A stretch of 64,000 nucleotides of DNA. Origin: Allosalinactinospora lopnorensis (GTDB taxonomy: Bacteria; Actinomycetota; Actinomycetes; Streptosporangiales; Streptosporangiaceae). Below the pieces are notes generated by a model that was not told the origin of the DNA, searched no databases, and saw only the letters and a list, made by a program, of their open reading frames with translations. The DNA is taken from the NCBI RefSeq assembly GCF_000981225.1, contig NZ_LAJC01000009.1, positions 1 through 64,000 on the forward strand. The letters are read 5' to 3'. Both the position numbers and the translations under genes were made by a program. Positions within the stretch are counted from its first letter, which is position 1, and every line of letters starts with the position of its first letter. Positions 23,764-42,643 of this stretch are shown piece by piece.

Positions 23764-25446
23764 GTGGCCACAGTCAGCGCGGACCCCGCGGAGCTCTTCG
23801 AACGGCACCGAGACACCCTGGAACAGGCGGTCACGGCGATCCACGAGCGGCACTGCTGGACGCCCTACCCCGAATCGCCCAGACCGAAGGTCTACGGGGA
23901 GGAGGCGGCGCCCGCGGGCGAGGCCGCGTTCCAGGGCTACCTCGGCCAGGACTTCCCGCTCGACCAGCCGGGCGGGAAGGACCGCGTCGTCACCGAGCGC
24001 TCGCCCTACGGGATCACGCTCGGCGTGGGCTACCCGCACGTCGACCCCGACACCCTGGTCGCCGCGGCCCGGGACGCGCTGCCGTCCTGGCGCGACGCCG
24101 GCCCCCGGGCGCGCGCCGGCGTGTGCCTGGAAGCGCTGCACCGGCTGAACCGGCGCAGTTTCGAGATGGCCCACGCGGTGCAGCACACCAGTGGCCAGGC
24201 GTTCGTCATGGCGTTCCAGGCCGGCGGGCCGGAGGCCCAGGCGCGCGGCCTGGAGGCACTGGCCTACGGCTACGACACGACCACCCGCTACGCCGGCTCC
24301 GTGCGCTGGGAGAAACCGCAGCGCAAGGGGGACCCGCTGGTGATGGAGAAGAGCTTCCACGCCGCGCCCCGCGGGGTGGCGCTGCTCATCGGCTGCAACA
24401 CCTTCCCCACCTGGAACGCCTACCCGGGGCTGTTCGCCAGCCTGGTCACCGGCAACCCGGTGATCGCCAAACCGCACCCGCGCGCCGTCCTGCCCATGGC
24501 CATCACCGTCTCGGTACTCCGTGAGGTCCTGGCCGAGGCCGGGCTCGACCCCAACACCGTGCTGCTCGCCGCAGAACGGAATGACGAAGGGCTCGCCGCG
24601 ACACTGGCCACCCGGCCCGAGGTGCGGATCGTGGACTTCACCGGCTCCACCGGGTTCGGCGACTGGCTGGAGAACAACGCGCGCCAGGCGTTCGTCAGCA
24701 CCGAGAAGGCCGGGGTGAACGCCGTCGTCGTGGACTCCACCGACGCCTACCGGCAGATGCTCGGCAACCTTGCCTTCTCGCTCTCGCTGTACAGCGGGCA
24801 GATGTGCACGACACCGCAGAACATCTTCCTGCCCGGCGGCGGGATCGACACCGACGAGGGGCACAAGAGCGCCGAGCAGGTGGGCGCGGACCTCGCGGCG
24901 GCGGTGTCCAAGCTGCTGGGCGAGCCCAAGCGGGCCACCGGCGTCCTCGGCGCGATCGCCAACGACGGCGTGCTGCGCCGCATCGAGGAGGCGGGCGGGC
25001 TCGGCGAGGTCGTCCTGGAGTCCACCGAGGTGGCACACCCGGAGTTCACCGAGGCCGCCGTGCGCACCCCCCTCATCGTCAAGCTCGGCGCCGACCGCCG
25101 CGACGTGTACGGCCGCGAACACTTCGGCCCGATCTCCTTCCTCGTCAGCACCGGGGACACCGACGAGGCGGTGCGGCTGATGCGCGAGACGATCACCGAA
25201 GGCGGGGCCCTGACGGCGGCGGTGTACTCCACCCGGGAGGACGTCCTCGACGCGGCCGAACGGGCCGCGCTCGACGCGGGCGTGAACATCTCGGCCAACC
25301 TGACCGGCCAGGTCTTCGTCAACCAGTCGGCCGCCTTCAGCGACTACCACGGCAGCGGCGCCAACCCGGCCGCCACCGCCGCCCTCACCGACCCCGGCTA
25401 CGTCGCCGGCCGATTCCACTTCGTCCAGTCCCGCCGCCCGGCCTGA
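23764..25446 (+). CDS. paaN: Phenylacetic acid degradation aldehyde dehydrogenase PaaN
   Basis: The 560-residue protein is an aldehyde-dehydrogenase-fold enzyme of the PaaN group, which stands in for the dehydrogenase half of PaaZ and oxidises the ring-opened semialdehyde of the phenylacetyl-CoA route. Family traits seen are LLIGCNTFPTWNAYPGLFAS, the cofactor turn FTGSTGFGDWLE and SLYSGQMCTTPQNIFLP, whose cysteine is the likely nucleophile. No hydratase domain is fused. GTG at 23764 has GGGAG ten bases ahead. The PaaR-type operator lies upstream. Confidence 0.9.
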   Translation: MATVSADPAELFERHRDTLEQAVTAIHERHCWTPYPESPRPKVYGEEAAPAGEAAFQGYLGQDFPLDQPGGKDRVVTERSPYGITLGVGYPHVDPDTLVAAARDALPSWRDAGPRARAGVCLEALHRLNRRSFEMAHAVQHTSGQAFVMAFQAGGPEAQARGLEALAYGYDTTTRYAGSVRWEKPQRKGDPLVMEKSFHAAPRGVALLIGCNTFPTWNAYPGLFASLVTGNPVIAKPHPRAVLPMAITVSVLREVLAEAGLDPNTVLLAAERNDEGLAATLATRPEVRIVDFTGSTGFGDWLENNARQAFVSTEKAGVNAVVVDSTDAYRQMLGNLAFSLSLYSGQMCTTPQNIFLPGGGIDTDEGHKSAEQVGADLAAAVSKLLGEPKRATGVLGAIANDGVLRRIEEAGGLGEVVLESTEVAHPEFTEAAVRTPLIVKLGADRRDVYGREHFGPISFLVSTGDTDEAVRLMRETITEGGALTAAVYSTREDVLDAAERAALDAGVNISANLTGQVFVNQSAAFSDYHGSGANPAATAALTDPGYVAGRFHFVQSRRPA

Positions 25447-25457
25447 CCTCTCCTCGA

Positions 25458-25510
25458 ATCCTGGCCGGGTCGGCGCCTCCCGGCGAGGACGGTGCCGACG
25501 CGGCCAGGAT
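25458..25510. terminator. Bidirectional terminator between paaN and the kinase gene
   Basis: A 20-bp stem (25458-25477 with 25491-25510) with one mismatch and one G-U encloses a 13-nt loop. It sits exactly between two convergent stop codons. Confidence 0.8.
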
Positions 25511-27021
25511 CAGCCCAGCAGCCGCCGCACCCTTTTGGTGAGGGGGTGGTCGGGGCCCAGGACGCGCGCGGCGTCGTCATGAAGGTCGCGCAGGTGGCTC
25601 CAGGCGTTGTCGAGCTCGCCGAGAGCCGCATGGCCGCGGGCGATCCCAAAGCGGACCTCAAGGGCCTCCTCCGTGTCCTCCTCGCCGAGCGCGCGGTAGC
25701 CGTCCAGCAGGTCGAGCAGCACCTCGATGGCCTCGGAATGCCGGTCCAGGTCGACCAGGCAGCCGGCCAGGCCATCCCGGCAGTCGAGGACGTCGGCGCT
25801 TCCCTCCCCGTGGTGCTCGATGAGCAGCGGGAGGAGCCGCCGGTACTCCCGCTCGGCCTGGTCGAAGCGGCGGGCGTAAAACCAGGCGTCGGCCCGCAGG
25901 TACATGAACAGCAGCCGGACGTCACCGGGCAGCTCTTCCGCGTTGGCGAGCGCGTCGGAGAGGAGGTCACCGGCCTGGGTAAACCGCTGTTCGCCCACGA
26001 GGTGGTCCACCTCGGCGCGCACCTGCTCCGGGTCGATCGGCCCGGTCGGCTGCGGCGCGGGGAAGGGAGGCGTGGCCGTTCCCGCCTTTTCACCGGCGCG
26101 GGAACGGGGTGCGAACGGGTACCGGAACGGGCGGGTCGGGTCGTGCTCCCCACTCGTGTCAAGGGTTCCCGCCGGCCGCGGCGCCGGAAGGAAGGGGGCC
26201 AGCCGGGTGAGGACCTCGTCGGCGTGGGCCGGGCGGTCGGCCGGCTCCTTGCTGAGGAGGTCGGCCAGGAGGGCGGCGAGCGGTGCGGGCACGTTGTCGC
26301 GGAACTCGCTCGGTGAGGGCGGGGCGGTGTTCACGTGCTGGTACAGCAGCGCCTCGGGGAGGGAACCGGTGAACGGGGGGCGGCCGGTGAGCATCTCGAA
26401 CAGCAGGCAGCCCAGCGCGTACAGGTCGGTGCGTGCGGTGACGTCCTTGCCGGTGCACAGCTCGGGGGCTACGTAGGGCGCGCTGCCGAGCGCCTTGTGG
26501 CTGCGGGTGAGCCGGGAGACGCTCGGATCGAGCAGGATCGCTATACCGAAGTCGAGAAGCTTGACGGTGCCGTCAGGGCCCACCATGATGTTGGCGGGTT
26601 TGATGTCGCGGTGCACCAGGAAGCCGGAGTGCGCGGCGGTGAGAACGGAGGCGAGCTGCGCCCCGATGGCGGCCGCGCTCTCCACGGGCAGCGGACCCCG
26701 CTGCGCGAGGAAATCACCGAGGTCCCGCCCCTCCACGAGCTGCATGACGAGGTACAGCTCCCCGTCCTCGGTTCCGGCGTCGTAGACGGCCGGAACGCCC
26801 GGGTGCTCGACCCGGGCGGTCATCCTCGTCTCCCGCAGGAAGCGCTCGACCAGCACGTCGGCCTCCGTGCCGGAGACACTCAGGTGCTGCCTGCTCATGA
26901 GTTTCACGGCGATCCGCCGGTCGAGCCGGCGGTCGTAGCCGCGGAGCACCACGCCCATGCCGCCCTGGCCGATCGGCGCGGTCAGCTCGTAGCGGTCGGC
27001 GATGACGCGCTGCTGGAACAT
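25510..27021 (-). CDS. Serine/threonine protein kinase with TPR-like C-terminus
   Basis: The 503-residue protein starts with a complete Hanks-type kinase domain: glycine loop GQGGMGVVLRG, VHRDIKPANIMVG (catalytic Asp near 139), LLDFGIAI and SAPYVAPELC. A Pro/Thr-rich linker of about 50 residues follows, then helical repeats resembling TPRs (QAEREYRRLLPLL, EAIEVLLDLLDGY, GHAALGELDNAWSHL). No membrane helix is seen, so it is cytoplasmic. The ATG at 27021 lies 33 bases behind the hsdR stop on the same strand, so it is very likely co-transcribed with the restriction subunit. A TTG at 27033 is an alternative start. Confidence 0.88.
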   Translation of the reverse strand: MFQQRVIADRYELTAPIGQGGMGVVLRGYDRRLDRRIAVKLMSRQHLSVSGTEADVLVERFLRETRMTARVEHPGVPAVYDAGTEDGELYLVMQLVEGRDLGDFLAQRGPLPVESAAAIGAQLASVLTAAHSGFLVHRDIKPANIMVGPDGTVKLLDFGIAILLDPSVSRLTRSHKALGSAPYVAPELCTGKDVTARTDLYALGCLLFEMLTGRPPFTGSLPEALLYQHVNTAPPSPSEFRDNVPAPLAALLADLLSKEPADRPAHADEVLTRLAPFLPAPRPAGTLDTSGEHDPTRPFRYPFAPRSRAGEKAGTATPPFPAPQPTGPIDPEQVRAEVDHLVGEQRFTQAGDLLSDALANAEELPGDVRLLFMYLRADAWFYARRFDQAEREYRRLLPLLIEHHGEGSADVLDCRDGLAGCLVDLDRHSEAIEVLLDLLDGYRALGEEDTEEALEVRFGIARGHAALGELDNAWSHLRDLHDDAARVLGPDHPLTKRVRRLLG

Positions 27022-27054
27022 CGGAGGGCCCAATCAAGCCGGGGGAGGGGCGGG

Positions 27055-30000
27055 TCAGGCGGCGTCGCGGCGCAGCCGCCGGTAGGCGCGTCCGCGGGCC
27101 CTGCGCACGAACTCCTCCCGGAATTCGTCGTTGTCGCTGAACATTCGGAGGAACGCGGTCCTGTTCTCGGCGCTCTCGTACACCTTGTCCTCGAAGGCGG
27201 TGTCGAAGACCAGGCCGAAGTCCTCCTCACTGTTGGCGTCGGCGGCGTTGGCCATCCCGGGTTTTTCCTCCACGAGGGCGTTGATGGGGTCGCCCATGTC
27301 CCCCGGCTGTATGTTCCCGCCGTACTTCTTGTTGAGCTCGTCGATGAGGTCCTGCAGGGAGCCCATTTCCGGCTCTTGCGCGGTGCCGCTCCCGCCTTCG
27401 GCGAAACCGGGCAGCACCTGCTCGCCCTCGGCGGTCAGACGCTCGTCGTGCACGCCGGTACGGGTGAGCCGGAACCGCTCGATGTAGGTCCCCGACAGGT
27501 CGACGTCGGACTCCTCCTTGCGGTCGGGCAGCCGGTTCAGCAGCAGCTTGCCGTACTGGAACAGCCGCTCCAGCCCGGCGTCGGTGAACGGCACTATCTG
27601 GGCGAGGAACGCGTACATCCGGACGAAGTCCCGCAGGGCACCGCGGAAGGACTCCGCGGTCTCGGGGTCCTCCTCCTGCAGCCGGACGAACCGTTTCAGG
27701 GCGGGATCGGTGTGCCGGTTCATCTCCGTGTGCAGGTGCTGCCATTCGCGGCCCTCGGCGCGGGAGCGGTCGGCGGCGGCGAACGCCTCGGCGAAGTCGG
27801 CGAGCTCGTGCTCGACCAGGAGTTGGTGCTCCATGACCTCGCGCTCGGCCGCGTAGAGCAGGTTGGGGTCGGTGGGGGTGGTCAGGGTGGTCTCGTAGTA
27901 CGGCTGGAAGGACTTGCGGATCTCCTCGGCATCGTTGGCGAAGTCGAGGACGAACAGGTCGTCTTGGCTCTTGGCCGGGTGGGTGCGGTTCAGCCGGGAC
28001 AGGGTCTGCACCGCCTGCACGCCGGTGAGCTTGCGGTCCACGAACATCGTGGTGAGCAGCGGCTGGTCGAAGCCGGTCTGGTACTTGTCGGCCACGACGA
28101 GGATGCGGTGCTCGGGTTTGCCGTTCGCCGGGGCGTCCGGGTCGTCGGCGCGCGTGTAGCCGAACCGGTCCGGCAGCTCCCTTTCGCCGAACCCGTTGAT
28201 CCTGGTCTCGGTGACCCGGTCGTCAGGGTTGCCGCCGACCTCCAGCTCCCCGGAGAACGCGACGAGCGCCCCGCAGTCGCCGTAGCCCAGCGTCTCCGCG
28301 TACTCGGTGATGGCCCGGTGGAGCTTCACGGCGTGGTTGCGCGACCCGGTCACGACCATCGCCTTGGCGCGGCCGCCCATGCGGCGCCGGGTGTCCCGGT
28401 GCACGTGCTCCACGATGACCTCGGCGCGCTGCTGCATGCTCTCCGGACTGAGCAGAGCGAACCGCACCAGCGCCGAACGGGCCTTCTTGGTGTCCACCTC
28501 GTGGTCGGCGGCGTCGGGCCCGGCCAGCCGGAAGTAGTTGGCGTAGGTGATGTAGTTGCCGAGCACGTCGAGGATGAAGCCCTCCTCGATGGCCTGGCGC
28601 ATCGAGTAGATGTGGAACGCCTCGGGGGTGCCGGTGACCGGGTCGGGGGTGCCGAACAGCTCCAGGGTCTTGTGTTTCGGGGTGGCGGTGAACGCGAAGA
28701 ACGACAGCTCCGGGTGGCGGCCGCGCGCCAGCGCCGAGGCGGTCAGCGGGTCGCCGTCGGCGTCGATGTCGTCGCTGCCGAGCTTGCGCAGCGCCCGCTT
28801 CATCGCCGAGGCCGAGTCGCCGGACTGAGAGGAGTGCGCCTCGTCGGCGACGATCGCGTACCGGTTCCCGCGCAGCGACGTGACCTGCTCCAGCACGTAG
28901 GGGAAGGTCTGCAGGGTCACGATGACGATCTTCGTGGTGGCGTCGGCGAGCGCCGCCGCGAGCTGGCCGGACTTGCTGCCGTCGGTCGTGGTGATGCGCT
29001 TGACCACGCCGGGAGTGTGGTCGAACTGGTAGATGGTGTCGCCGAGCTGCTTGTCCAGCACCGACCGGTCGGTGACCACGATGGTCTTGTCGAACACCAG
29101 ATGGTCGGGGCCCAGCACGGCGCCGGGGGCGAGGCCCGCGGGGTCGGGCACCGTGTGCAGGGTGGACAGCCGGTGCGCCAGCCAGGCGATGGTGTTGGAC
29201 TTGCCGGACCCGGCGGAGTGCTGGATCAGGTAGTTGTGCCCGCTGCCGTGCCGGGCGACGTGGTCGGTGATCCGGTCCACGGCGTGCCACTGGTGGTAGC
29301 GCGGGAAGACGAGCCGCCGCTCGTGCGGTTGGGCCTTGCTGCCCTTCTCCGGCAGCTCCAGGTGCAGGAACCGGCGCAGCAGGTCCAGCCAGGTGTCGCG
29401 CTGCCAGATCTGTTCCCACAGGTAGCCGGTGGCGTACCCGGAGGGTCCCGCGGGCGGGTTGCCCCTGCCGCCGGAGACGCCGGGCCCGCCGGAGCCGGTG
29501 TTGAACGGCAGGAAGGCGGTGGCCTGCCCGTTCAACCGTGTGGTCAGGTGCACCTCGTCGGGGTCGACCGCGAAGTGCACCAGGGCGCGTTTGCGCAGCA
29601 GCGGTTCGCGGGGGTCGCGGTCGGTGCGGTACTGCCGCTTGGCGTGCTCCACGGTCTGCCCGGTGAGGGGGTTCTTCAGCTCGGCGGTGGCCACCGGCAC
29701 CCCGTTGCAGAACAGCACCAGGTCGAGGGACTTCTCCGGGGTCTTCGCGGAGTAGTGCAGTTGCCGGGTGACGCTGAGGACGGTGGCGTCGTACTCGGCG
29801 AGGGCGTCGGCGGCGCCCGCGCCGGCCGGTTTGAAGAACGCGAGCCGCACCTGCACCCCGCGGTCCTTGACCGGGTGCCGCAGCACGTCGAGCGCCCCGC
29901 GCCGGTCGATCTCGCGGGCGACGTGCTCGGCGAAGCGCCGCCGGAACTCCGCGGTGTCGCCGCCGTAGAGCTCGGTGAGCCGCTCGCACTCCTCGGGCTG

Positions 30001-30159
30001 GGTGCGCCCGAGGAACTCGAACAGCCGCCGGGTGTCGAGCGCGAGCCGCCGGTCGTAGTCCTTCTGGAGCCCTTCCACCCATCCGCCGGCCCCGGTGAGC
30101 GAATCGACGATGACCGTCTCGAACGCCGCTTCGTGGTGCGCGGGCTTCGGCGAGGGCAT
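27055..30159 (-). CDS. hsdR: Type I restriction enzyme R subunit HsdR
   Basis: The 1034-residue motor-nuclease subunit. The N-terminal nuclease core is LDLVLFCNGVPVATAELKNP (the D...E-x-K pattern); the helicase part has Walker A HSAGSGKS near residue 314, the DEAH box near 440, and TATPKHK; the last third is the helical C-domain. The frame is intact. ATG at 30159 has AAGGAG nine bases ahead. The cognate hsdM-hsdS lie 5 kb away on the same strand, separated by unrelated genes, and the kinase gene follows closely. It cuts DNA that lacks the pattern made by its methylase. Confidence 0.94.
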   Translation of the reverse strand: MPSPKPAHHEAAFETVIVDSLTGAGGWVEGLQKDYDRRLALDTRRLFEFLGRTQPEECERLTELYGGDTAEFRRRFAEHVAREIDRRGALDVLRHPVKDRGVQVRLAFFKPAGAGAADALAEYDATVLSVTRQLHYSAKTPEKSLDLVLFCNGVPVATAELKNPLTGQTVEHAKRQYRTDRDPREPLLRKRALVHFAVDPDEVHLTTRLNGQATAFLPFNTGSGGPGVSGGRGNPPAGPSGYATGYLWEQIWQRDTWLDLLRRFLHLELPEKGSKAQPHERRLVFPRYHQWHAVDRITDHVARHGSGHNYLIQHSAGSGKSNTIAWLAHRLSTLHTVPDPAGLAPGAVLGPDHLVFDKTIVVTDRSVLDKQLGDTIYQFDHTPGVVKRITTTDGSKSGQLAAALADATTKIVIVTLQTFPYVLEQVTSLRGNRYAIVADEAHSSQSGDSASAMKRALRKLGSDDIDADGDPLTASALARGRHPELSFFAFTATPKHKTLELFGTPDPVTGTPEAFHIYSMRQAIEEGFILDVLGNYITYANYFRLAGPDAADHEVDTKKARSALVRFALLSPESMQQRAEVIVEHVHRDTRRRMGGRAKAMVVTGSRNHAVKLHRAITEYAETLGYGDCGALVAFSGELEVGGNPDDRVTETRINGFGERELPDRFGYTRADDPDAPANGKPEHRILVVADKYQTGFDQPLLTTMFVDRKLTGVQAVQTLSRLNRTHPAKSQDDLFVLDFANDAEEIRKSFQPYYETTLTTPTDPNLLYAAEREVMEHQLLVEHELADFAEAFAAADRSRAEGREWQHLHTEMNRHTDPALKRFVRLQEEDPETAESFRGALRDFVRMYAFLAQIVPFTDAGLERLFQYGKLLLNRLPDRKEESDVDLSGTYIERFRLTRTGVHDERLTAEGEQVLPGFAEGGSGTAQEPEMGSLQDLIDELNKKYGGNIQPGDMGDPINALVEEKPGMANAADANSEEDFGLVFDTAFEDKVYESAENRTAFLRMFSDNDEFREEFVRRARGRAYRRLRRDAA

Positions 30160-30394: not shown

Positions 30395-30664
30395 ATGGAG
30401 CGTCCCTGGGACGTGAACCCGGCAGCGCGGTTCAAGCGGCGGCTGGGCAAGACCGCCGCCGAGCTGGGCGACAGCCGGATCGGAAAGGACTGCCCTGAAT
30501 TCTGGGAACTCGATGACGGCGATGTGGCGATCATCGGACGCGACGCCACCCGGCTGCTCGCCGACCGGATACCCCCGCAGGTGAGCATGGCACCGGACGA
30601 ACGCATCGTGGTCGTCCCGGGAAACCAGTTCCGATCCACCGTCGCGGACGTTGTCGATGAGTGA
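30395..30664 (+). CDS. Small conserved protein, partner of a DUF6879 gene (copy 1)
   Basis: An 89-residue acidic protein that I do not recognise. It has a fixed core: KTAAELGDSR, DCPEFWELDDGDVAIIGRD and ERIVVVPG, a compact alpha-beta look without membrane helix. ATG at 30395 has GAGGAG five bases ahead. Its last 8 bases overlap the start of the DUF6879 gene, so the two are translated together. A paralogue with about 52 of 89 residues the same lies 1 kb downstream in the same setting. Confidence 0.7.
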   Translation: MERPWDVNPAARFKRRLGKTAAELGDSRIGKDCPEFWELDDGDVAIIGRDATRLLADRIPPQVSMAPDERIVVVPGNQFRSTVADVVDE

Positions 30665-31289
30665 GCAGATCTTCCACCGGATCCGCCAGGCGCGGGGGCG
30701 GGTACTCGACCGGCCCACCTACCACGCGGACAGCGACCAGGAGCAGGCGCGGCTTACCGGCGGCGTGATCTGGAAACTCGAACGCTCCCAAGTGTTCAAC
30801 GAGGTCGGAGACCCCGCATGGGAGGCCATGCTGGCCGGTGACTGGGCGCGGGTCATGGAGATCTTCGAAAGCGAGCGCGAGGCGATCAGCCAAGAGTTGC
30901 GCGACAACGCCGAGCAGGGACTGGAGTTCCGCCGGCTGCGGATCGTGGAAAGCCCGCCGACGCCGTACCTGCGTTGGGAGTCGCACAGCCACCGGATCTT
31001 CGTGGAGTGCGGCCACCCGATCCGGGCTCTGGACGCCGCGGAGGTGGCCCATCTCGAAACGGTGGGCCCGCTGCCCGAACTGATGGTGTACGGGGATCGC
31101 GTGCTGTACCAGGTGCGCTACGACGAGGCGTGGACCCCCATCGGAGCCAAACGCGTCGACGATCCCGAACTCGTGTCCGGGGCGGTGGAGGCGATCGCCC
31201 GCCTGTGGCGGTACGGCGAGCCGTTCCCGGACTACTTCGAGCGTGAGATCGCCGGACTTCCCGCTCCTACGGTCTTCCACCCGGGGTGA
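30657..31289 (+). CDS. DUF6879-family protein (copy 1)
   Basis: The 210-residue product carries the DUF6879 hallmarks WKLERSQVFNEVGDPAWEAM, LRRLRIVESPPTPYLRWE, HSHRIFVECG and LPELMVYGDRVLYQVRYDE. These proteins are frequent in actinomycetes, often beside XRE/DUF397 regulators; their role is unknown. The start overlaps the small partner gene by 8 bases (ATGAGTGA). A paralogue follows. A link with the neighbouring restriction genes is only positional. Confidence 0.75.
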   Translation: MSEQIFHRIRQARGRVLDRPTYHADSDQEQARLTGGVIWKLERSQVFNEVGDPAWEAMLAGDWARVMEIFESEREAISQELRDNAEQGLEFRRLRIVESPPTPYLRWESHSHRIFVECGHPIRALDAAEVAHLETVGPLPELMVYGDRVLYQVRYDEAWTPIGAKRVDDPELVSGAVEAIARLWRYGEPFPDYFEREIAGLPAPTVFHPG

Positions 31290-31300
31290 GCCGATCGGTT

Positions 31301-31348
31301 ATCCGCGTGGCCGGATTCCGCCATACGTAGGGTGTTGAGTGTCCAACG
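31301..31348 (+). repeat. Downstream copy of the duplicated control region
   Basis: Second copy of the sequence at 30256-30303 (core GGATTCCGCCATACGT). It follows the first DUF6879 gene by 12 bases and precedes the second module. Confidence 0.6.
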
Positions 31349-31400
31349 CGCCGGGGCGGGAACGTACCCTTATCCCGCCCCTGAACACGGGAGGATCCCA

Positions 31401-31670
31401 GTGGAACGTCTGTGGGACGTGAAGCCCGACGCCCAGTTCAAGCAGCGTCTCGGAAAGACAGCCGCCGAACTGGAAAAGAGCCGCACTAATGATGACTGCC
31501 CGGAGATCTGGGAACTCGACAACGGTGATGTGGCGATCGTGGGGCGCGACGTCACGGAGCGCTTCAGCGACCGCCTTCCGGCCGGGCTGAGCATAGGTGC
31601 TGACGAGCGATTGGTGGTTATTCCCGGGGAGATGCTGCGAGCCGCGAAGCCGGACATCGCTGATGTTTGA
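31401..31670 (+). CDS. Small conserved protein, partner of a DUF6879 gene (copy 2)
   Basis: An 89-residue paralogue of the product of 30395-30664, keeping KTAAEL, DCPEIWELDNGDVAI, GRD and DERLVVIPG. Starts with GTG at 31401 behind GGGAGGAT. It overlaps the next gene by 8 bases (ATGTTTGA), just like copy 1. Differences lie mainly in the C-terminal third. Function unknown. Confidence 0.7.
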   Translation: MERLWDVKPDAQFKQRLGKTAAELEKSRTNDDCPEIWELDNGDVAIVGRDVTERFSDRLPAGLSIGADERLVVIPGEMLRAAKPDIADV

Positions 31671-32280
31671 CACCATACGCGCGGCTGAGGGCGCGGTTAT
31701 GGACCGCCGCGCCTACCACGCGGACGCCGCCGCCCTGCGCGCGAGCCCGGCCATGACCGGTGATGTCTGGAAGCTGGAGCGGTCGCAGGTTTTCTCCGAG
31801 TCGGGAGATCCGGCCTGGGAGGCGTTCCGCTCCGGTGACTGGGACCGGGTCCTGGAGATCTTCGAAGGCGAACGCGAGGACATTCGCGCGGAACGACAGG
31901 ACTACGAGCGGTTGGGGCTGCGGCTGCGGCGGCTGCGCATCGTCGAGCTTCCGCCCACGCCCTACCTGCTGTGGGAGGCGCACAGCCACCGAATATTCGT
32001 CGAGTGCGGCTTCGAGATCCGCGTGATCGACGCCGGGCACATCCGCCACTTCGAAAGTGAGTACCCGCTTCCGGAACTCATGGTGTACGGCGGGCAGGCT
32101 CTCTACCACATCCGTTACGACGAGAACGGGGTTCCGGCCGGGGCGAAGCGGATCGATGATCCCGCGCTGGCGCACGCCGCCGCGCGAACCGTGTCAGAGT
32201 TGTATGGGCAGGCAGAAGCGTTTGTGGACTTCTTCGAACGGGAGATCGCACCAAGAGCACCGGTCTACACCGCAACCTGA
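31663..32280 (+). CDS. DUF6879-family protein (copy 2)
   Basis: A 205-residue paralogue of the product of 30657-31289: WKLERSQVFSESGDPAWEAF, LRRLRIVELPPTPYLLWE, HSHRIFVECGFEIRVID and LPELMVYGGQALYHIRYDE. The N- and C-terminal ends differ from copy 1. The following membrane-protein gene may begin inside its last 77 bases. Confidence 0.75.
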   Translation: MFDTIRAAEGAVMDRRAYHADAAALRASPAMTGDVWKLERSQVFSESGDPAWEAFRSGDWDRVLEIFEGEREDIRAERQDYERLGLRLRRLRIVELPPTPYLLWEAHSHRIFVECGFEIRVIDAGHIRHFESEYPLPELMVYGGQALYHIRYDENGVPAGAKRIDDPALAHAAARTVSELYGQAEAFVDFFEREIAPRAPVYTAT

Positions 32281-33112
32281 ACCGGGGCGGCGAACACCCA
32301 GGCCGCCCTCCACTGCCGAGCGCGGAAGTACCCGGCCGCTGACCGTTGCTACGATTCTGCTGCTCATCGTGGTGGCGGTCGTGCTCGTCGGCGTCTCCCC
32401 ACTGGGGCTGCGGGTCTTCGACGGTGCCGACGGGGAGTGGGAGCGGCTGAGCCTCATCGGGCAGACCTATGGCGCGGTCTCCGCGCTGATCGCGGTTCTG
32501 GCGCTGGTCGGCGTGGCGGTGACACTTGTCTTCCAGGCGCGGGAGACCAGGAGGGCGATCGAGGAAACCCGGCGCCAGGCCATGAGTGAACTGCTGCGGA
32601 TGGCCATGGACGATCCCGACCTCGACGAGTGCTGGGGACCGGTCCCCGACGGGGAAGACCCCAAGACGCGCAAGCAGCAGCTCTACACGAACATGATCAT
32701 CTCGCAGTGGGCCAGCGCTTTCGAGATCGGTGCGCTTCCAGAGGAGCGGTTGCGCGCGGTGGCCCGCGAGATGTTCCAAGGCGCGGTCGGCTACGCCTAC
32801 TGGACACGGGCGCGCGACATGTCCTCTATGACCGAGGGAACCCGGCGGGAACGGCGGTTCGTGGCGATCCTCGACGAGGAGTACCAGAAGGCCGAGCCCG
32901 CCGAGCCCGCGCGGCGTGAGGACGAGGAGGGCAGGGAGCGCACCCGCCACGGTGTGGGGCGTCTGCTGCTCGCTTTCGCTGCGGGCACGGCAGCGGTCGG
33001 GGCCGCCGCCGGGGTCGTTCGGCGCCTGCGCCGGGACACCCCTCCCTCGTCGATCTTGAGCATTCCGTTCCTTCGTGCGTTCGTGAAGAAACGCTTCCCT
33101 CAAGAGCCCTGA
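32204..33112 (+). CDS. DUF6082-like membrane protein
   Basis: The clear part starts near 32340: two hydrophobic segments (VATILLLIVVAVVLVGVSPL; AVSALIAVLALVGVAVTLVF), then a cytoplasmic domain with RRQAMSELLRMAMDDPDL and QLYTNMIISQWASAFEIG, which resembles DUF6082 proteins, and a basic tail with a further hydrophobic stretch (LLLAFAAGTAAVGAAAGVV). The start is unsure: ATG 32204 overlaps the previous gene and adds 45 odd residues; GTG 32369 would cut the first helix. Function unknown. Confidence 0.6.
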   Translation: MGRQKRLWTSSNGRSHQEHRSTPQPEPGRRTPRPPSTAERGSTRPLTVATILLLIVVAVVLVGVSPLGLRVFDGADGEWERLSLIGQTYGAVSALIAVLALVGVAVTLVFQARETRRAIEETRRQAMSELLRMAMDDPDLDECWGPVPDGEDPKTRKQQLYTNMIISQWASAFEIGALPEERLRAVAREMFQGAVGYAYWTRARDMSSMTEGTRRERRFVAILDEEYQKAEPAEPARREDEEGRERTRHGVGRLLLAFAAGTAAVGAAAGVVRRLRRDTPPSSILSIPFLRAFVKKRFPQEP

Positions 33113-33126
33113 GGGAGGGGAAGAGG

Positions 33127-33396
33127 TTACAGGTGGGCTCGCCGCACCGCCGAGAGAAACGCCGACCACTCGGCCCCGGGGAAGGACAGGTGCCCCGCGC
33201 GGGGACGCTTGGAATCCCGCACGGCGACGGAGGAGGGGAGCTGGGCGTACTCGACGCAATTGGCGTTCGATCCGCTGTGGGAGGACACGTGCCAGGCGGT
33301 GCTGGAGCATTCGAGGCAGTCTGCGTTCGACCCGCTGTAGGAGCTCTTACGCCAGGTTGCCGCTGAGAGTCGAGCGCTCATGGGGGACGCCTTCAT
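33127..33396 (-). CDS. DUF397 protein with doubled motif
   Basis: An 89-residue DUF397 protein, the small partner of WhiJ-type regulators. The family motif W-x-x-S-S-Y-S-G-S-N-A-x-C-x-E appears twice in a row: TWRKSSYSGSNADCLE and AWHVSSHSGSNANCVE, before the usual VAVRDSKRP and FPGAEWSAFL. ATG at 33396 overlaps the XRE stop (ATGA); an ATG at 33381 is possible. It is thought to bind or modulate the partner repressor. Confidence 0.85.
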   Translation of the reverse strand: MKASPMSARLSAATWRKSSYSGSNADCLECSSTAWHVSSHSGSNANCVEYAQLPSSVAVRDSKRPRAGHLSFPGAEWSAFLSAVRRAHL

Positions 33397-34241
33397 TCGT
33401 GATCGAGTTCCTTTGCAATGGCCGCAACAGTATCCACGGACTCCTGCTGCGTCAGCGCGACTGACTTCAGCCTATCGGCCTCGCTTCGGAAGAAGGCGAC
33501 CTGTTCCGGCTTCTCCAGGAAAAGCCCGGAGATCTTGTGGTCCAGGTAGACCACGGGCCCGTCCTTGGCGAAGTCGAACAGGGCGAAGGCGCCGTCCAGG
33601 CCGGTGTGCGCGCCTACGGAGTAGCGCAACACCCACAGGTTCACGTTGGGACGCTCGGTGGCCTCGATGAGGTGCCGGAGTTGACGTGCCATGGTCTTCG
33701 GGCTGCCGACGATTCGCCGGAGCGCGCACTCGTCCAAGATCACGTCGAAGGCCGGTGGCTTCTCCCGGCTGAGGATCGCCTGCCGGCTCATCCGCGCGGC
33801 CACCCGGATCTCGGCGTCCTCCTCTGAGACACCGCACGCCTTCATAACCACCCGGGTGTAGTCCGGTGTCTGCAACAGGCCGGGGATAAGTAGCGGCTGG
33901 AAGTTGAGGATGCTGGTCGCGGCGGGCTCGATCTGGATGAGGGTCCTCGATTCTTGGGACAGCGGCCCCTGGACCTCCCACAGGTTCGGCTCGTCGGCCC
34001 GCTCGGTCTTGGCCAGCAGGCGCTCGCGTTCCTCACCGGTGACGCCGTAGATGACCAGAAGCGAGGCCACGTCCTCGGTGGTGATGCCCTGCTTGCCGGT
34101 TTCGATCCGGGACAGCCGGGAGGGCTGCCAGCCGAGCTGTGTTGCGACGTGGCGGAGGCTGAGATGCCGCGTGTTGCGCAACGATCGCAACTCCGCGCCC
34201 AAGCCGCGACCGGCGATGGTGCTCTGACGTGCTTGGGGCAT
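33393..34241 (-). CDS. XRE-family regulator of the WhiJ type (DUF5753)
   Basis: The 282-residue protein has an N-terminal helix-turn-helix (LGAELRSLRNTRHLSLRHVA, then GWQPSRLSRIETGKQGI) and a C-terminal DUF5753 domain with IPGLLQTPDYTRVVM and a Leu/Asp-rich end. Such regulators act with DUF397 proteins in WhiJ/abaA-like clusters that affect development and antibiotic production in Streptomyces. It overlaps the DUF397 gene by four bases and is divergent from a small gene plus an ATPase gene, the classic arrangement. Confidence 0.88.
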   Translation of the reverse strand: MPQARQSTIAGRGLGAELRSLRNTRHLSLRHVATQLGWQPSRLSRIETGKQGITTEDVASLLVIYGVTGEERERLLAKTERADEPNLWEVQGPLSQESRTLIQIEPAATSILNFQPLLIPGLLQTPDYTRVVMKACGVSEEDAEIRVAARMSRQAILSREKPPAFDVILDECALRRIVGSPKTMARQLRHLIEATERPNVNLWVLRYSVGAHTGLDGAFALFDFAKDGPVVYLDHKISGLFLEKPEQVAFFRSEADRLKSVALTQQESVDTVAAIAKELDHE

Positions 34242-35299: not shown

Positions 35300-36631
35300 T
35301 CACCCCACGGCCGCCCGCCCCGCCGTCGTCACATCCATCTGCCCAGTGACAGCCGCAGTGATGAGCGCCTGCCGCCGCTCAGCAAGGAGAGAGATTTGCC
35401 GCTCGATCCCGTCTTTGGCCTCTCTGGTGCTCCCTAGGGACTTGTGAACGATGGCGATCAGCTCCCGCTGTCGAGAGAGTTTGGGGAGTGGAATGGGAAA
35501 CGCGAGAACTTTGGTGCTATTAGTCGAAGCGAGATTGGTGCTGCGCACACCGGTGCTTTCAAAGTAGCAACGTCCGTGCAAGGACTGTGTAAGGAGTGCC
35601 AGGTACTCAGGATCGAGGCGATTCTTGTCTGGGCGCAGCGCGAATATGTGGTTCTGGTGCAGTGCGCCGGGGATTTCTCCACGCCAAACTGTGCCGCGCC
35701 CCAACTTATCGATGTCACCTCCTTCTGTCATCAGGACATCGCCCGGTCGCAATGCGGAACGGGCGGCAACTGGGAGTGGAACGGTGATCTCCGATACGGA
35801 AGACAGATCTACGTGGTCTGCCTGTACATTAGCGACACGCAAGTAGGGGCGAGTGACGCTCTTATCGTCGATCTCCCTGGTCCCGTCGAGTGTAACGCCA
35901 CCTTGGATTCTGCATACATATCCGAGTCGGACTAATGGAGTGGAAGAGTCTAGCTTTGGGAGCCATCTCCACGGATAATCGCCAAGTGGCGAGGCGAGGA
36001 TGCCTGGGAAGAAGCGTTCCGATACTTCTGCGGATGCGCGCTCGGTTAGCGCGCTGAACTGCTGTTCGCGGAGGAAAATAAGGCGATCGATTCGCCCTGT
36101 CTCGGCGTCGAGGAAGTCAGATATACGCCACTGCTCATCCAGCGGTGGCATAATTCCAGGGGAGTTGGAGAGACCATCATTGCTCAGCTCAATTTGGTTT
36201 GTAGAGCCAACTACAAGGTTTGAATTCATGTAGTCAGAGAAGAGGGAACTGCCAAGGTAGTAAAACGCGAACCGTTCATCCCATGCGCTTCTATCGACGC
36301 GTGCGACTGTGACATGCGTATCCGCTATGCATGGTTTATTGTCTGGGCATCCTGTGAAGCGTCCAACGCGGCCGAGTGTTCCACGGCCGGTTGAGTTTAT
36401 GAGTATATCGCCGTGTTGAATATGCCCTTTAAGGTTACGTGGGTCACCCGGGTAGTCATGAAATCGAGTGCGTTCCCAGTCTAGCCCTGTTAATTGGTTT
36501 GATGCTTGGCTCACGACCCGAATAGGTCCATGATCTACGTAAGCAGGTACGGACCCCCTTCGGAGAGTTGTTGTTAGGTGCTTAAGAGGTGACCATCGCC
36601 ATCCGGACGGAAGCGGGACGTCTTCCAACAT
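35300..36631 (-). CDS. hsdS: Type I restriction specificity subunit HsdS
   Basis: The 443-residue subunit reads the DNA target for HsdM and HsdR. Two target-recognition domains can be seen, each ending in a helical spacer: first LPSGWRWSPLKHL to PPLDEQWRISDFLDAETGRI, then YVCRIQGGVTLDG to LPKLSRQRELIAIVHKSL. The base composition is clearly lower in GC (about 50-55% in sampled lines) than the rest of the window, in line with frequent exchange of specificity genes. ATG at 36631 shares a base with the hsdM stop (TGATG). Confidence 0.9.
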   Translation of the reverse strand: MLEDVPLPSGWRWSPLKHLTTTLRRGSVPAYVDHGPIRVVSQASNQLTGLDWERTRFHDYPGDPRNLKGHIQHGDILINSTGRGTLGRVGRFTGCPDNKPCIADTHVTVARVDRSAWDERFAFYYLGSSLFSDYMNSNLVVGSTNQIELSNDGLSNSPGIMPPLDEQWRISDFLDAETGRIDRLIFLREQQFSALTERASAEVSERFFPGILASPLGDYPWRWLPKLDSSTPLVRLGYVCRIQGGVTLDGTREIDDKSVTRPYLRVANVQADHVDLSSVSEITVPLPVAARSALRPGDVLMTEGGDIDKLGRGTVWRGEIPGALHQNHIFALRPDKNRLDPEYLALLTQSLHGRCYFESTGVRSTNLASTNSTKVLAFPIPLPKLSRQRELIAIVHKSLGSTREAKDGIERQISLLAERRQALITAAVTGQMDVTTAGRAAVG

Positions 36632-38621
36632 CACTCCGTCACCTCCCCCAACAACCTCTGGATCTCGGCCTCAAGCTCCTTCAACTCCGCGTCAATCTCC
36701 TCCAACGGCCTTGGCGGAGTGTACTCATAAAAATGCCTGGTGAAGGGGATCTCATATCCCACCTTGGTCTTGGTCTCGTCGATCCAGGCGTCGGGGACGT
36801 GTGGCAGGACCTCGCGCTCCAAGTAGGCGTGGATGTCCTCGTCCAGCGGGACGTTCTCGTAGTCGCGGAGGTCCGGGTCCGGAAGGACGTTTCCTTTCTT
36901 GTCCTTCTGCGGTTCGCCTTCGGGGTCGCTGACGCTGACCGCGTTCCATACCTGCTTGGTGACGGGGGTCGGGATGCCGGTGAGGCCCGCGTCGGCGTAG
37001 GCGGCCTTCAGCTTGGCGTCGAAGTCGGCCTTGCCGTAGGTCGGCTCCCGGCCCGCCAGGGGGCGCAGGGCGGTGAGGATCTTGTCCCGCAGGTCGGTGT
37101 CCTTGGCGAGGGTCTTGTTGGCCTCCAGCTCGGCCAGCGTCTCCTCGGTGACCTCGAAGCGCAGCCGCAGCGGGCGTTCGACGGTGATCCGCCGGTAGCC
37201 GAAGTCGCTCGGCTGGAACACCTTCACCCGGGGATCCGACTCGGCCTCGGACAGGGCGTTCACGTACAGCTTCGTCAGTTCCGCGATCCGGTCGTCCGGG
37301 ATGTACTTGCGTTTGTCGCCGAGGCTCTTGCGCATCTTCTCCCACTCGCCGCGGGCGTCCAGCAGGATCACCCTGCCTTGTGGGCCGGGTCCTTCTTGTT
37401 CGACAGGATCCAGAAGTAGGTGGAGATCCCCGTGTTGTAGAAGAGCTGGTCCGGCAGGGCGACGATGCCCTCAAGCCAGTCGTTCTCCAGGATCCATCGG
37501 CGGATGTCGGACTCGCCCGACCCCGCGCCGCCCGTGAACAGCGGGGAGCCATTGAACACGATGGCCACACGCGCGCCTTCCTTCTCGGGTGGGCGCATGT
37601 GGTGGATCATGTGCTGCAGGAACAGCAGCGAGCCGTCGTTGATCCGGGGCAGCCCGGCGCCGAACCGGCCCCGGTAGCCCTTGTTCTCGTGCTCGGCCTC
37701 GACCTCGCCGCGGGCCTGCCTCCACTCCACCCCGAACGGCGGGTTGGCCAGCAGGTAGCTGAACGACCATGAGGCGTGCCGGTCGTCGGTGAAGGAGTTG
37801 CCGAGTTTGATGTTGTCGGCCTGCTCGCCCTTGATCAGCATGTCCGAGCGGCTGATCGCGTAGGACTCCGGGTTGACCTCCTGGCCGAACAGCTTCACGG
37901 TCGCGTCCGGGTTGTGCTCGGTGATGAAGTCCTCGGCGGCGGTGAGCATGCCCCCGGTCCCGCACGCCGGGTCCAGCACGGTGAAGACCTTGTTCTCTCT
38001 GAGGAGATCGGCCTTGTCCGGCGACAGCAGCAGCTTCACCATCAGGTTGATGACCTCGCGCGGGGTGAAGTGCTCACCGGCGGTCTCGTTGGAGATCTCG
38101 GAGAACCTGCGGATCAGCTCCTCGAACAGGTAGCCCATCTGGTGGTTGGACACCCGCTCCGGGTTCAGGTCCACCTCGGCGAACTTGCCCGCCACCAGGT
38201 ACAGCAGCTTCGACTTCTCCAGCCGGGCGATCTGGTTCAAAAAGTCGTAGTTTTCGAAGATGTCCGCGGCCGTCGAGGAGAAACCGCCGATATAGGTGCG
38301 CAGGTTCTTCGCCATGACGTGCTGGTCGGTCTCGGCTTCTACGATCTTCTCCAAGCTCAGGTTCGACTCGTTGAAGAAGCTCAGCCCCTGCGACCTGGCG
38401 AACGACAGGAGTTGGCGTTCCCGGTTCTCGAAGCCATTGGCCTTGAGCTCGTCGCGTTTTTCGATGATGGCGGCCTTGTGCGGCTCCAGCACGCACTCCA
38501 GCCGCCGCAGCACGGTGAACGGCAGCACCACCCTGCCGTACTCCGACTGCTTGTAGCTGCCGCGGAGCAGGTCGGCCACCGACCAGAGGAAACCGGCGAG
38601 CCGCTGGTGTTCAGAACTCAT
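36631..38621 (-). CDS. hsdM: Type I methylase subunit HsdM (apparent frameshift)
   Basis: The N-terminal 417 residues hold the HsdM helical domain and the N6-adenine methylase core: LDPACGTGGMLTAAEDF (SAM-binding motif I) and LLANPPFGVEW (catalytic NPPF). The frame stops at about 37369 after FWILSNKKDPAHKAG. With one G added near 37376 the protein continues KGRVILLDARGEWEKMRKSL for about 245 residues, giving a normal HsdM of about 660. A run AAGG[G]CAGGG at the break fits loss of one G. The downstream part alone starts with a plausible ATG. As written, methylation by this system would be lost while hsdR stays intact, which favours a sequence error or a switch rather than a stable mutation. 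Confidence 0.85.
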
Positions 38622-38714: not shown

Positions 38715-40776
38715 TTATCTGTCGGGGATGTCGTCCGGCTCGTCCGCGACCGGGCGGAGGGCGCCGTGGACCAGGCCGTCGACCATCGTGCGCCGCGCGT
38801 CGTCACCCGCCCGGTACAGCCGGTCGAGGGTGGCGCGGAACTCCTCCAAGTGGCGGAAGGCCGCACCGATCCGCTGTTGGTCGGGCAGCGGCAGGCGCGG
38901 CAGCTCCACCCGCCGGACGTCGACGAGGGAGGAACGGTGCAGCGAAGAGGAGCGCCGCGCCACCTCGGAGCCGCTGAACACGATGGCCAGGAACCACGGG
39001 TCGAGTGTCTCGGTGTCCGGGCGTACGACCACTACGTTGCCCGCGACGGGAGTGCCCGCCTCGGTGTCGCCGACCACCCGGGCGGCCGGGCGGGGGATGG
39101 GCGCGCGCGGCACCAGGACGTCACCGGCCCGGACCCACACCGTGTCCACGCCCTCCGGTACCCGTTGCGATGGCGGCCCCCCGGACAACACGTCCGCCAC
39201 CGTGAACGCGAGAAGGGCTTCCGGCCCGGCGGCGTCCTCCTCCCCGCGGCGGTGAAACGGTGTCCAGAGCAGTTCGACCTGCCCGCGGCGCACCAGGTCG
39301 TGAACGGTCACCGTGGCCCTTGAGCCCGGCGGCGTCTCGGCGACCTCCGGCAGCAGCTCGGAGAGCCGCCCGGCGAGCGCGGCCAGGGTCTCCCGGGCCT
39401 CACCGAGCCCGGAGACGTCGGGGGCGGCGGGGGTGAGGTGCCGGGCCGGGGTGAGGTCCACGTCCTCGCCGAGAAGGTCGACCACCGGAACCGTCCGCCA
39501 GTGCCCCGACTCCTCCCCCGTGCCCGATCGCCCGGCCGCGAACGGCTCGTAGGCCTCCAGCACCGCCTCGCGCACCTCCGGCCAGGCGGGTTCGGCGACC
39601 GCCGCGGCGGCGTCCACCATCAGCACATCGGAGGGCGCGGCCTCCCCCTCGGCGGGGCGCCGCAGCACCCACAGCGTGAGGGGGATGCCCATCGGGGGTG
39701 CCAGGCCCGGCGGGCAGGGCGATCACCGCGCGCAGCGCGCCCCGGCGCAGCAGCTCCGCCCGGATCCGGCGGCCGGAGCGCCGCGAGGCCACCCCCGGCG
39801 GGAGGACCATGACGACCGCGCCGCCGGGCCGGGCGCGGGCGAGCGCGTGCTGCACCCAGGCGAGCTCCGAGTCCCCTTTCGCCGGGAGTCCGTACTCCCA
39901 GCGGGCGTCGAACTCCAACTCCTCAACACCCCAGTCCCGCTGGTTGAACGGCGGGTTCACCAGCACGGCGTCGGCGTGCAGGTCGGGGAAGGCGTCCTCG
40001 CGCAGCGAGTCGCCCGCGCGGATGTCGGGTTCGGCCCCGGCCAGCGCCAGCCGCACCCCGCCGAGCCGCGCCGGCCCCGCGTTCAGCTCCTGCCCGACTG
40101 GCCGCACGCCCTGCCCGCGCAGGAGCGCGGTCCGCAGCAGGGTGGCCGCGCCGCACGCCGGGTCGAACACGGTGCCGCCGGGGCGGCCCGCGAGCTCCAC
40201 CATCAGCTCGGCGAGTTCCTCGGGGGTGGCCGTGAACTGGCGGGTGACCGAGGTGAGGAAGCGCCCGTAGAGCCGTTCGAACGTCTCCTGCGGGCCGCCC
40301 TCCTCGCGGGCCAGTTCGGCGATCCCGTCCAGCGTCGCCCGGAACGTGTGAACAGGGGGGAGCGCCGGGGGCCCGGTGTCGGGAACGGCTGTGAACACCG
40401 CCCGGATACGGTCGTCCAGCTCGGCGTCCGCCATGCCCGCCGTGCCGCTCGCCGATGCCGCGACCAGCAGGGCCGCACCCGCGAACGCCACCGCGTCGGC
40501 GGTGTCGAGCCGCCCCCGCGCGGCGTCCATGAGCTGCCACACCGACTCCACGCTCGGCGCCTGGGTGAGCTTGCCCTGCCGCTCCAGCCAGCCGCGCACC
40601 TCACGCAGGTCGAACGAGGGGCTGGTGTCCGTGCCGCCCACCGGTTCCGGGAAGTCGCCGTGCCTGCGCCGCCAGTTGCTCACCGCGGCGCGCCCCACCC
40701 CGGCCAGGCGGGCGATCTCGGCTGCGCTGACGGTCGCGGCGTCGCCGTCGTTGGTGTCCGGCACCGACCTTGCCAT
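38715..40776 (-). CDS. N-6 DNA methylase with HTH start and HsdS-like tail (apparent frameshift)
   Basis: The start (VSAAEIARLAGVGRAAVSNW) is a helix-turn-helix that reads like MerR or LacI. A type I-like adenine methylase follows with VFDPACGAATLLRTA and LVNPPFNQRDWG. At about 39701-39708 the frame shifts; removing one C restores ALPAGLAPPMGIPLTLWVLR and a C-terminal half that looks like an HsdS target domain with a LPLPDQQRIGAAFRHLEEF spacer. The whole would be about 685 residues, a methylase-specificity fusion without its own nuclease. It is divergent from the TIGR04141 gene. Such orphan methylases are frequent in actinomycetes. Confidence 0.78.
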
Positions 40777-40942: not shown

Positions 40943-42643
40943 ATGACCCGAACGGCACTTTCCAGCCCGGAGCCGTCCCGATCCGCCCCCCGCGTCCGCG
41001 AGGTCACGCTGTACCGGCTGACCGATGTGAAAGCGAACGAGCACAGCATGCGCGCGGTCTTCGACGAGGCCGGAACCGCCCGCCGGCAGCTCCACCTCAG
41101 GACGACCCGCATCAACGGCATGCCCGCGGTGGTGCTGTACGGGATGCGCGGCGGCGAGCGCCCGCCCGACTGGCAGGCTGACGCGGTCCGGACCACCGCG
41201 GTCGACCTGGACCTGCGCAAGACCTCCCCGGTCGCCGCCGTCATCGTCGCGGTGGACGATGCCGTCTACGCGTTCAGCTACGGGGGCGGCCACCACCTCA
41301 TCCCGAGAGACCTCAGGGACCCGGAGTTCGGGCGCACGTTCGCCGCCTGCGCACTCGACCCGGCGACGGTGGCCACGGTCAACACCCGCGACATGGACAC
41401 CGTGAACCGGTACGGCAGCATCCACATACCGCGCGGCCAGGCGGTGCGCACCTTCGGGCTCCGGCACGAAAGGGAGCTGGTGAACCGGCTCAAAGCCAGG
41501 TGCGGGCTGAGCGAGCTCACGGCCGCGCGCGGCGGTGAGAAGGCGCGTTTCGCCGAATGCGGGGACGGCATCCGCACCCATCTCGGTGTCGACCAGGCCG
41601 ACCTCGTCAACGACATCCGTTTCATCGCCGCGACCGTGGAGGAGCGCTACGTGCAGGAGGAGATGCGGTTCCTGGAGGACCGCAAGGAGGTCCGCTCCCA
41701 CGAGAAGACCGAGGTGCTCTGGTCGCTGGTCGAGGACGGCCTGCGCGACCCGGACTCCATCGGACTGGCGATCGCCCCGCCGCTGGACGTCTTCGATCAG
41801 CTCGACGAGGCGCGCTCATTCCAGGTCCGCATCGGGGTGACGTGCGCGCCGCGTACCGAATTCCGGGTGGAGGACCTGGTGGCGCGGCTGCGCCACCTGA
41901 GGAAGGGAACGCTCGCCCAGGCGCTCAAGAAGGGGTGGATCCGGCTGTTCGAGGACAGCAACGGCCAGCGGGAGCTCGCTCACCACCGCAACCTGTGCCA
42001 CTGGATCGAGGCCACGGTGTCGCCGGGCAGCGAGATGTACGTGCTGCGGGACGGGCGCTGGTACGAGTACGGCCCCCGCTACCTGGAGGAGGTGCGCCGC
42101 GAGGTCGCGGACCTCCTCGCGAAGGGGGCGTCGGTGGACCTCCCCGACTGGCCGGAGGTGCTCCCGTACCGGCGCGCAAAGGAGTCGCCCGAAGCGGCGT
42201 ACAACCGGCACGTCGGCGATACGCAGCCCGGATACCTCCGCCTGGACAAGAACCTCGCCCGCACCGAGGTCCACTTCGGCAACGGAGTGGAGCTGTGCGA
42301 CCTCCTCGGGCCGGGAAACGAGCTGGTCCACGTCAAGCAGGCGTCCTCGGCCGCGGGCCTGAGCCACCTGTTCAACCAGGCAAAATCCGCCGTGGAGAGC
42401 CTGCACTACGAGAAGCGGGCCCGCGAGTGGTTCACCGGGATCGTGGCCCGCATGAACCCCGAACGCGACCTCACCGGTTTCCAGCCGAAGACCGTCGTGT
42501 TCGGCATCCGGCTGGCCAGGCACTCCAAGGTCACAATCGAGAACCTCTACCCGCTGGCGCAGGTCGAGCTGTACCGCACCGCCGTGGCGCTGCGCCGGTG
42601 CGGAATCAACGTCGAGGTCGCCGCCATCAGGCACGGCGGCTGA
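40943..42643 (+). CDS. TIGR04141/DUF6119 sporadically distributed protein
   Basis: The 566-residue protein begins with VREVTLYRLTDVKANEHSM, has the middle block IRTHLGVDQADLVNDIRFI and ends with the typical C-terminal block ELVHVKQASSAAGLSHLFNQ, after which come a few helices and a small beta end with VVFGIRLARHS. This matches the family named for its patchy distribution, here without membrane parts. Its role is not known; patchy occurrence and neighbours suggest phage defence, which is inference. ATG at 40943 has GGGAG six bases ahead; a GTG at 40892 would add 17 residues and overlap an inverted repeat. Confidence 0.75.
   Translation: MTRTALSSPEPSRSAPRVREVTLYRLTDVKANEHSMRAVFDEAGTARRQLHLRTTRINGMPAVVLYGMRGGERPPDWQADAVRTTAVDLDLRKTSPVAAVIVAVDDAVYAFSYGGGHHLIPRDLRDPEFGRTFAACALDPATVATVNTRDMDTVNRYGSIHIPRGQAVRTFGLRHERELVNRLKARCGLSELTAARGGEKARFAECGDGIRTHLGVDQADLVNDIRFIAATVEERYVQEEMRFLEDRKEVRSHEKTEVLWSLVEDGLRDPDSIGLAIAPPLDVFDQLDEARSFQVRIGVTCAPRTEFRVEDLVARLRHLRKGTLAQALKKGWIRLFEDSNGQRELAHHRNLCHWIEATVSPGSEMYVLRDGRWYEYGPRYLEEVRREVADLLAKGASVDLPDWPEVLPYRRAKESPEAAYNRHVGDTQPGYLRLDKNLARTEVHFGNGVELCDLLGPGNELVHVKQASSAAGLSHLFNQAKSAVESLHYEKRAREWFTGIVARMNPERDLTGFQPKTVVFGIRLARHSKVTIENLYPLAQVELYRTAVALRRCGINVEVAAIRHGG

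Follow-up and report, generated by a model that had tools for sequence, protein, structure and literature searches.

The hsdR gene of a type I restriction-modification (R-M) unit from Allosalinactinospora lopnorensis is followed by a gene for a Ser/Thr kinase with a TPR-like tail, and this pairing is not accidental: the two genes probably form one defence system, in which phosphorylation may switch cutting. It has long been asked how type I enzymes spare the chromosome of their own cell. HsdR of EcoKI is phosphorylated on threonine in E. coli, a modification that has so far been given neither a role nor a dedicated kinase (PMC3874165, PMC12707154). A type I clade that carries a kinase of its own, with hsdR relatives in 48 of the 299 genomes of the same family analysed here, makes phospho-control of restriction directly testable.

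The window, i.e. the whole stretch of DNA that was analysed, comprises 64,000 nucleotides. In it, the kinase ATG is located at 27021, 33 bp past the hsdR TGA (27055) on the same (minus) strand, and no terminator-like site was found between positions 25000 and 31000. This confirms what the first-pass annotation, made from the letters alone, had reported for the junction. The range it gave for the pair, 27021-30159, contains the whole of hsdR, but only the start codon of the kinase gene, which occupies 25510-27021. It had further proposed an operon shared by hsdR and the kinase; the pairing was borne out, whereas the extent had to be revised, since hsdS, hsdM, a second methyltransferase gene (M2) and a divergent DUF6119 gene also belong to the unit. 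The features are as follows:

25510..27021, minus strand: kinase (Pfam, alignments, AlphaFold model, Foldseek)
27022..27054, minus strand: intergenic gap between the hsdR stop and the kinase ATG, 33 bp, without a terminator-like site
27055..30159, minus strand: hsdR, 1034 aa (Pfam and invariant motifs)
35300..36634, minus strand: hsdS, specificity subunit (Pfam Methylase_S; PADLOC Specificity_I, 400 bits)
36631..38621, minus strand: hsdM (Pfam N6_Mtase and HsdM_N; PADLOC MTase_I, 629 bits)
38715..40776, minus strand: M2, with HTH, N6-adenine methyltransferase and specificity-like C-terminus (Pfam; PADLOC PDLC03037)
40943..42643, plus strand: DUF6119/TIGR04141 gene, divergent from M2 (Pfam, NCBIfam)

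The full unit is therefore ordered as DUF6119 (divergent), M2, hsdM, hsdS, hsdR and kinase. Among relatives, the gap between hsdR and the kinase measured 7-180 bp in 43 of 49 hsdR loci, and a T-run was present in only three of these 43; the two genes are presumably co-transcribed. With about 22 kinase hits over the 5.9 Mb of the source genome, we estimate that a kinase would be the next same-strand gene by chance in <1% of cases, compared with the 43 of 49 relatives in which it lies within 180 bp. The interval between hsdS and hsdR (30651-34241) contains a gene for an XRE/DUF5753 (Sco1979-type) regulator and two DUF6879 genes, which are unrelated to the unit and widespread in Streptomyces; comparable insertions between S and R were seen repeatedly in relatives.

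The kinase has 503 aa, with Pfam matches to Pkinase (residues 11-270, E 5e-48) and TPR_12 (377-443, E 5e-11). An AlphaFold model built from 24 relatives (mean pLDDT 84) predicts a PknB-like kinase at residues 1-277, a linker modelled as disordered, and nine helices in TPR-like pairs at 331-502; the nearest Foldseek neighbours of the model are PknB and PknA. Domain matches and predicted fold thus agree with the first-pass description of a Ser/Thr kinase with a TPR-like tail. The catalytic residues K40, E64, HRD 137-139 and DFG 157-159 are invariant in all aligned members, which rules out a degenerate kinase or pseudogene. Within the linker, the alignment revealed a conserved motif, DPTRPF..P, at residues 294-302; a DNA search for this motif within the window gave matches at chance level only. 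Evolution has been faster in the tail (34% mean identity) than in the kinase domain (53%), as would suit a sensor, whether the kinase switches the R-M complex or guards it (see below). Comparison of the tail with PDB sequences gave no match.

HsdR contains SWI2/SNF2, ResIII, HSDR_N and T1R_D3 domains according to Pfam. The nuclease residues D146, E160 and K162, the Walker A motif GSGKS (317-321) and the DEAH box (439-442) are invariant in the alignment. Against the NCBIfam hsdR model TIGR00348 the protein scored 153 bits, below the cut-off of 285, and we therefore regard it as a member of a divergent branch. Judged from the aligned sequences, both the kinase and HsdR are under strong purifying selection. 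The HsdR clade also has Ser/Thr residues of its own at positions 223, 408, 574, 703 and 731, as well as a clade-specific insert at about 668-683; these are indistinguishable from lineage markers, and we do not claim any of them as a phosphorylation site.

Conservation of the pair was counted in the 299 same-family genomes, a set in which the source genus is a singleton and in which kinase relatives were found in 110 genomes. We took 20 kb around each hsdR match, ignoring whether a kinase was present. A same-strand kinase was located downstream of hsdR in all 49 loci, within 180 bp in 43 of them and 1.6-7.6 kb away in the remaining six. A neighbourhood specific to this strain, which by the first-pass annotation would have refuted the link, is ruled out by these counts; clade-wide conservation gives strong support to the connection it had drawn between a type I nuclease and a kinase encoded beside it. 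Other genes separate M from R in 16 of the 49 loci, and in every one of these 16 R and the kinase stay together, indicating that R has a closer link to the kinase than to M. In the six loci with R and the kinase apart, M and R are together.

In a scan of named GTDB genomes, a kinase accompanied 24 of 26 hsdR loci (>=48% identity). One of the two exceptions lies too near a contig end; the other, L129 from S. gossypii, keeps the R-M genes and has no kinase within 10 kb. The kinase-linked genera include Streptomyces, Micromonospora, Actinoplanes, Nocardia, Nocardiopsis, Pseudonocardia, Frankia, Saccharomonospora and Glycomyces, among others, and an hsdR on a Streptomyces mirabilis megaplasmid (49.8%) also has the kinase. 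At lower identity the association was not seen: no kinase was present in the available flanks of HsdRs at 41-47% identity from other phyla, deep actinobacterial lineages and archaea, next to annotated hsdRs of Gordonia and Rhodococcus plasmids (39-45%), or downstream of the hsdR paralogue in the source genome itself (39%), with some kinase-less calls resting on just 1.5 kb of flank.

A tree of 160 HsdR sequences placed 77 kinase-linked proteins, L129 and one protein of unknown status on a single branch (clade A) with 100% local support; two of the 77, L103 and L104, were recruited through the kinase search and do not count as independent evidence. Of the 81 HsdRs outside this branch, 68, from many phyla, are without a kinase and 13 are untestable. 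Two changes, one gain and one loss, suffice to explain the distribution. Of the 78 tips of the clade that could be tested, which span long branches and no fewer than eight families, 77 have kept the kinase. As the association has a single origin, the tips are not independent of one another. Tips of different families intermingle within the clade, consistent with the cassette having spread horizontally. Patristic distances of the kinase and HsdR correlated with r=0.89 over 74 pairs (maximum after shuffling, 0.13), and the distances of the kinase domain, the TPR tail, R, M and M2 all correlated with one another at 0.83-0.94, from which we conclude that the cassette travels as one. The earlier statement that only position supports the link therefore no longer holds, given the single gain, the co-divergence, the retention of R with the kinase in 16 of 16 loci and the invariant catalytic residues.

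The kinase is not restricted to this HsdR. In a DISARM variant, a member of the kinase-TPR family is placed behind drmA-drmB-drmC in at least 25 of the 42 loci whose DrmB has >=60% identity; the DrmA/DrmB core is present in L101. Examples of this variant from Streptomycetaceae (L101, 3294-15992; L105; L322) carry the kinase-TPR gene, often M2, a UvrD-like helicase and a GmrSD_N protein. In a second type I family (type I B), whose HsdR is about 22% identical, the order is R, YgjP-like peptidase, M2 and kinase (loci L296, L298, L301, L318, L321, L324 and L325). Solo pairs of M2 and kinase also occur, often near a UvrD-like helicase, and such a pair may possibly represent a minimal defence unit; among L328-L331 the helicase is divergent in three of four loci, with no hsdR or drm gene in the stretch examined. 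Among 37 HSDR_N genes sampled without bias in 61 genomes of the order, this kinase family came after 18, of which 13 belong to the window's clade and five to the second type I family (of the other 19 genes, 16 had their flanks checked). M2 was found in the examined flanks of 47 of 77 kinase-linked loci, as opposed to one of 45 kinase-less loci, namely the kinase-loss locus L129, and the corresponding counts for a DUF6119 homologue were 22 of 77 and 0 of 45. Distances of M2 and the kinase correlated at 0.93-0.99 within contexts and 0.79 across contexts. By its distribution among these loci, the kinase is a portable module and not a partner of HsdR only. Outside hsdR and drm loci, in L106 and L107, M2 is followed by a kinase with a seemingly membrane-spanning tail and no TPR match.

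The R, M and S subunits place the system of the window among type I R-M systems, to which it adds a kinase and a further methyltransferase. Like EcoKI-like enzymes, it has HsdM, HsdS and an HsdR whose nuclease and motor motifs are intact; what the clade adds as constant parts are a dedicated kinase-TPR gene and M2, both missing from the kinase-less relatives outside it. The combination of an adenine methyltransferase and a Ser/Thr kinase in one Streptomyces anti-phage locus resembles Pgl (BREX type 2). However, PglW is a NERD-kinase protein of 1400-1600 aa, whereas the window's kinase has 503 aa with TPRs and no NERD domain, reached 64 bits against the PglW model NF033442 (cut-off 990), and is found with HsdR as the nuclease; no BREX family, including PglZ and PglY/BrxC, was among the PADLOC matches listed for the cassette proteins. 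HTH, methyltransferase, specificity protein and Ser/Thr kinase occur together also in MADS (Mad1-Mad8), and PADLOC gave partial matches of cassette proteins to mad1, mad2, mad5 and mad6. Scores were low (152 bits for the kinase against the MAD6 model NF047741, cut-off 460; 55 and 30 bits for the MAD2 model NF047738, cut-off 720), HsdR matched no mad model, and the gene order and the kinase tail differ. The DISARM variant (drmA-drmB-drmC-M2-kinase) has the kinase-TPR family, and often M2, in common with the window, but its effector is DrmABC instead of HsdR, and no DrmB match at E <= 1e-50 was found in the source genome. With curated cut-offs missed or core genes absent, membership in MADS, Pgl or DISARM was rejected. 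EcoprrI is similar in having an accessory gene within a type I operon, although PrrC is an anticodon nuclease and the accessory gene here encodes a kinase. PD-T4-6 and Stk2 are Hanks-type, PknB-like kinases as well, but they stand alone. The resemblance to abortive-infection kinases suggested in the first-pass annotation came down to generic matches: the best PADLOC hits, to the PD-T4-6 family, are strong (up to 308 bits) but cover the kinase domain only (residues 1-328) and probably reflect no specific relationship. A full-text literature search, in which subscription journals were largely missing, found no published hsdR-kinase operon.

That the kinase and the R-M genes constitute one functional system of some kind is, in our judgement, nearly certain. 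In the mechanism that we prefer, the HsdM/HsdS complex and M2 would mark self DNA, and HsdR would translocate and cleave unmarked DNA. The kinase, a stable member of the system, would phosphorylate one of the subunits and thereby shift the complex between resting and restricting states, with either an activating or a silencing effect. HsdR would be the leading candidate for the substrate and M2 or HsdM the alternatives, while the TPR tail could serve either as a sensor of the trigger or as the part by which the kinase binds the complex. We give even chances to phosphorylation of the operon's own products being the main function of the kinase. Related cases are known besides the threonine phosphorylation of EcoKI HsdR: Streptomyces Pgl requires the kinase activity of PglW, and the authors of that work modelled phosphorylation as a switch of a type I-like complex (PMC4365076), and the DndFGH restriction complex loses its activity when phosphorylated by a phage kinase (PMC12345140). 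Several observations speak against such a switch. The kinase family also occurs without this HsdR, in DISARM, with the second HsdR family and with solo M2, so HsdR is not the only possible substrate; the kinase is distant from hsdR in six loci; and L129 has none. We also counted against it that no conserved cognate phosphatase was seen, which leaves the reversibility of the switch unexplained.

The main rival, which we consider less likely, is that the kinase is a guard-type effector of abortive infection. The intact R-M complex would silence it, and it would be released, or activated by way of its TPR tail, once a phage blocks or evades restriction; it would then phosphorylate host proteins and stop growth, much like PrrC in EcoprrI or like Stk2. 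Precedents are PrrC, which a type I complex sequesters until an anti-restriction protein sets it free (PMC3874165), and abortive infection by the Stk2 kinase (PMC12926258). One kinase family at the end of several distinct restriction operons would suit an add-on effector, the faster evolution of the tail is what a sensor should show, and the best PADLOC matches are PD-T4-6 family kinases, although these span the generic kinase domain only. Retention of R with the kinase in nearly all members is, however, unusually strict for an add-on effector, and divergence of the kinase domain tracks that of HsdR (partial r 0.53, suggestive only). Still less probable, in our opinion, is that the kinase acts mainly on M2, the two forming a portable methylation-state switch for various nucleases, like PglX/PglW. 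Their joint recurrence in type I A (the window's family), type I B, DISARM and solo loci, their correlated distances and the lack of M2 in kinase-less loci other than the kinase-loss locus all point in this direction; yet certain kinase loci, such as the DISARM loci L099-L101, have no nearby M2, and in clade A the kinase adjoins HsdR, at the opposite end of the operon from M2. Finally, an unrelated kinase could have been located downstream of hsdR in the ancestor and merely inherited, given that the whole clade A association goes back to one origin. We regard such hitch-hiking as very improbable, because the kinase has persisted with an intact active site in all testable tips but one, R and the kinase stay together where M and R are broken apart, and the same kinase family was independently recruited to other restriction operons.

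A broader version of the switch mechanism is that M2 and kinase-TPR are a portable phospho-switch which actinomycetes have plugged onto two type I families and DISARM, where phosphorylation would license cutting or cell shutdown, beyond methylation state alone; we put this forward tentatively, as possible rather than probable. The presence of the kinase in DISARM and in solo methyltransferase pairs suggests a joint regulatory or effector layer across methylation-based defences. In current catalogues such kinases and methyltransferases are entered separately, and only as generic ones.

In the assembly analysed, hsdM is split into two ORFs by a 1-bp deletion near 37378 and M2 by a 1-bp insertion near 39705, whereas each is a single ORF in relatives. 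Both indels are located in G/C runs and are absent from two close, 90%-identical relatives, and other kinase genes of the same assembly are likewise split. An assembly error is more likely, on this pattern, than real inactivation, and truly split genes were rejected as the less favoured, though not disproven, reading. Sequencing error is also the simpler explanation because broken hsdM and M2 together with intact HsdR would hardly be viable unless HsdR were silenced. For the DUF6119 protein, the predicted fold gave no PDB match better than E 0.01; the DUF6119/TIGR04141 protein has a conserved motif, E-x-CDLL...VK.
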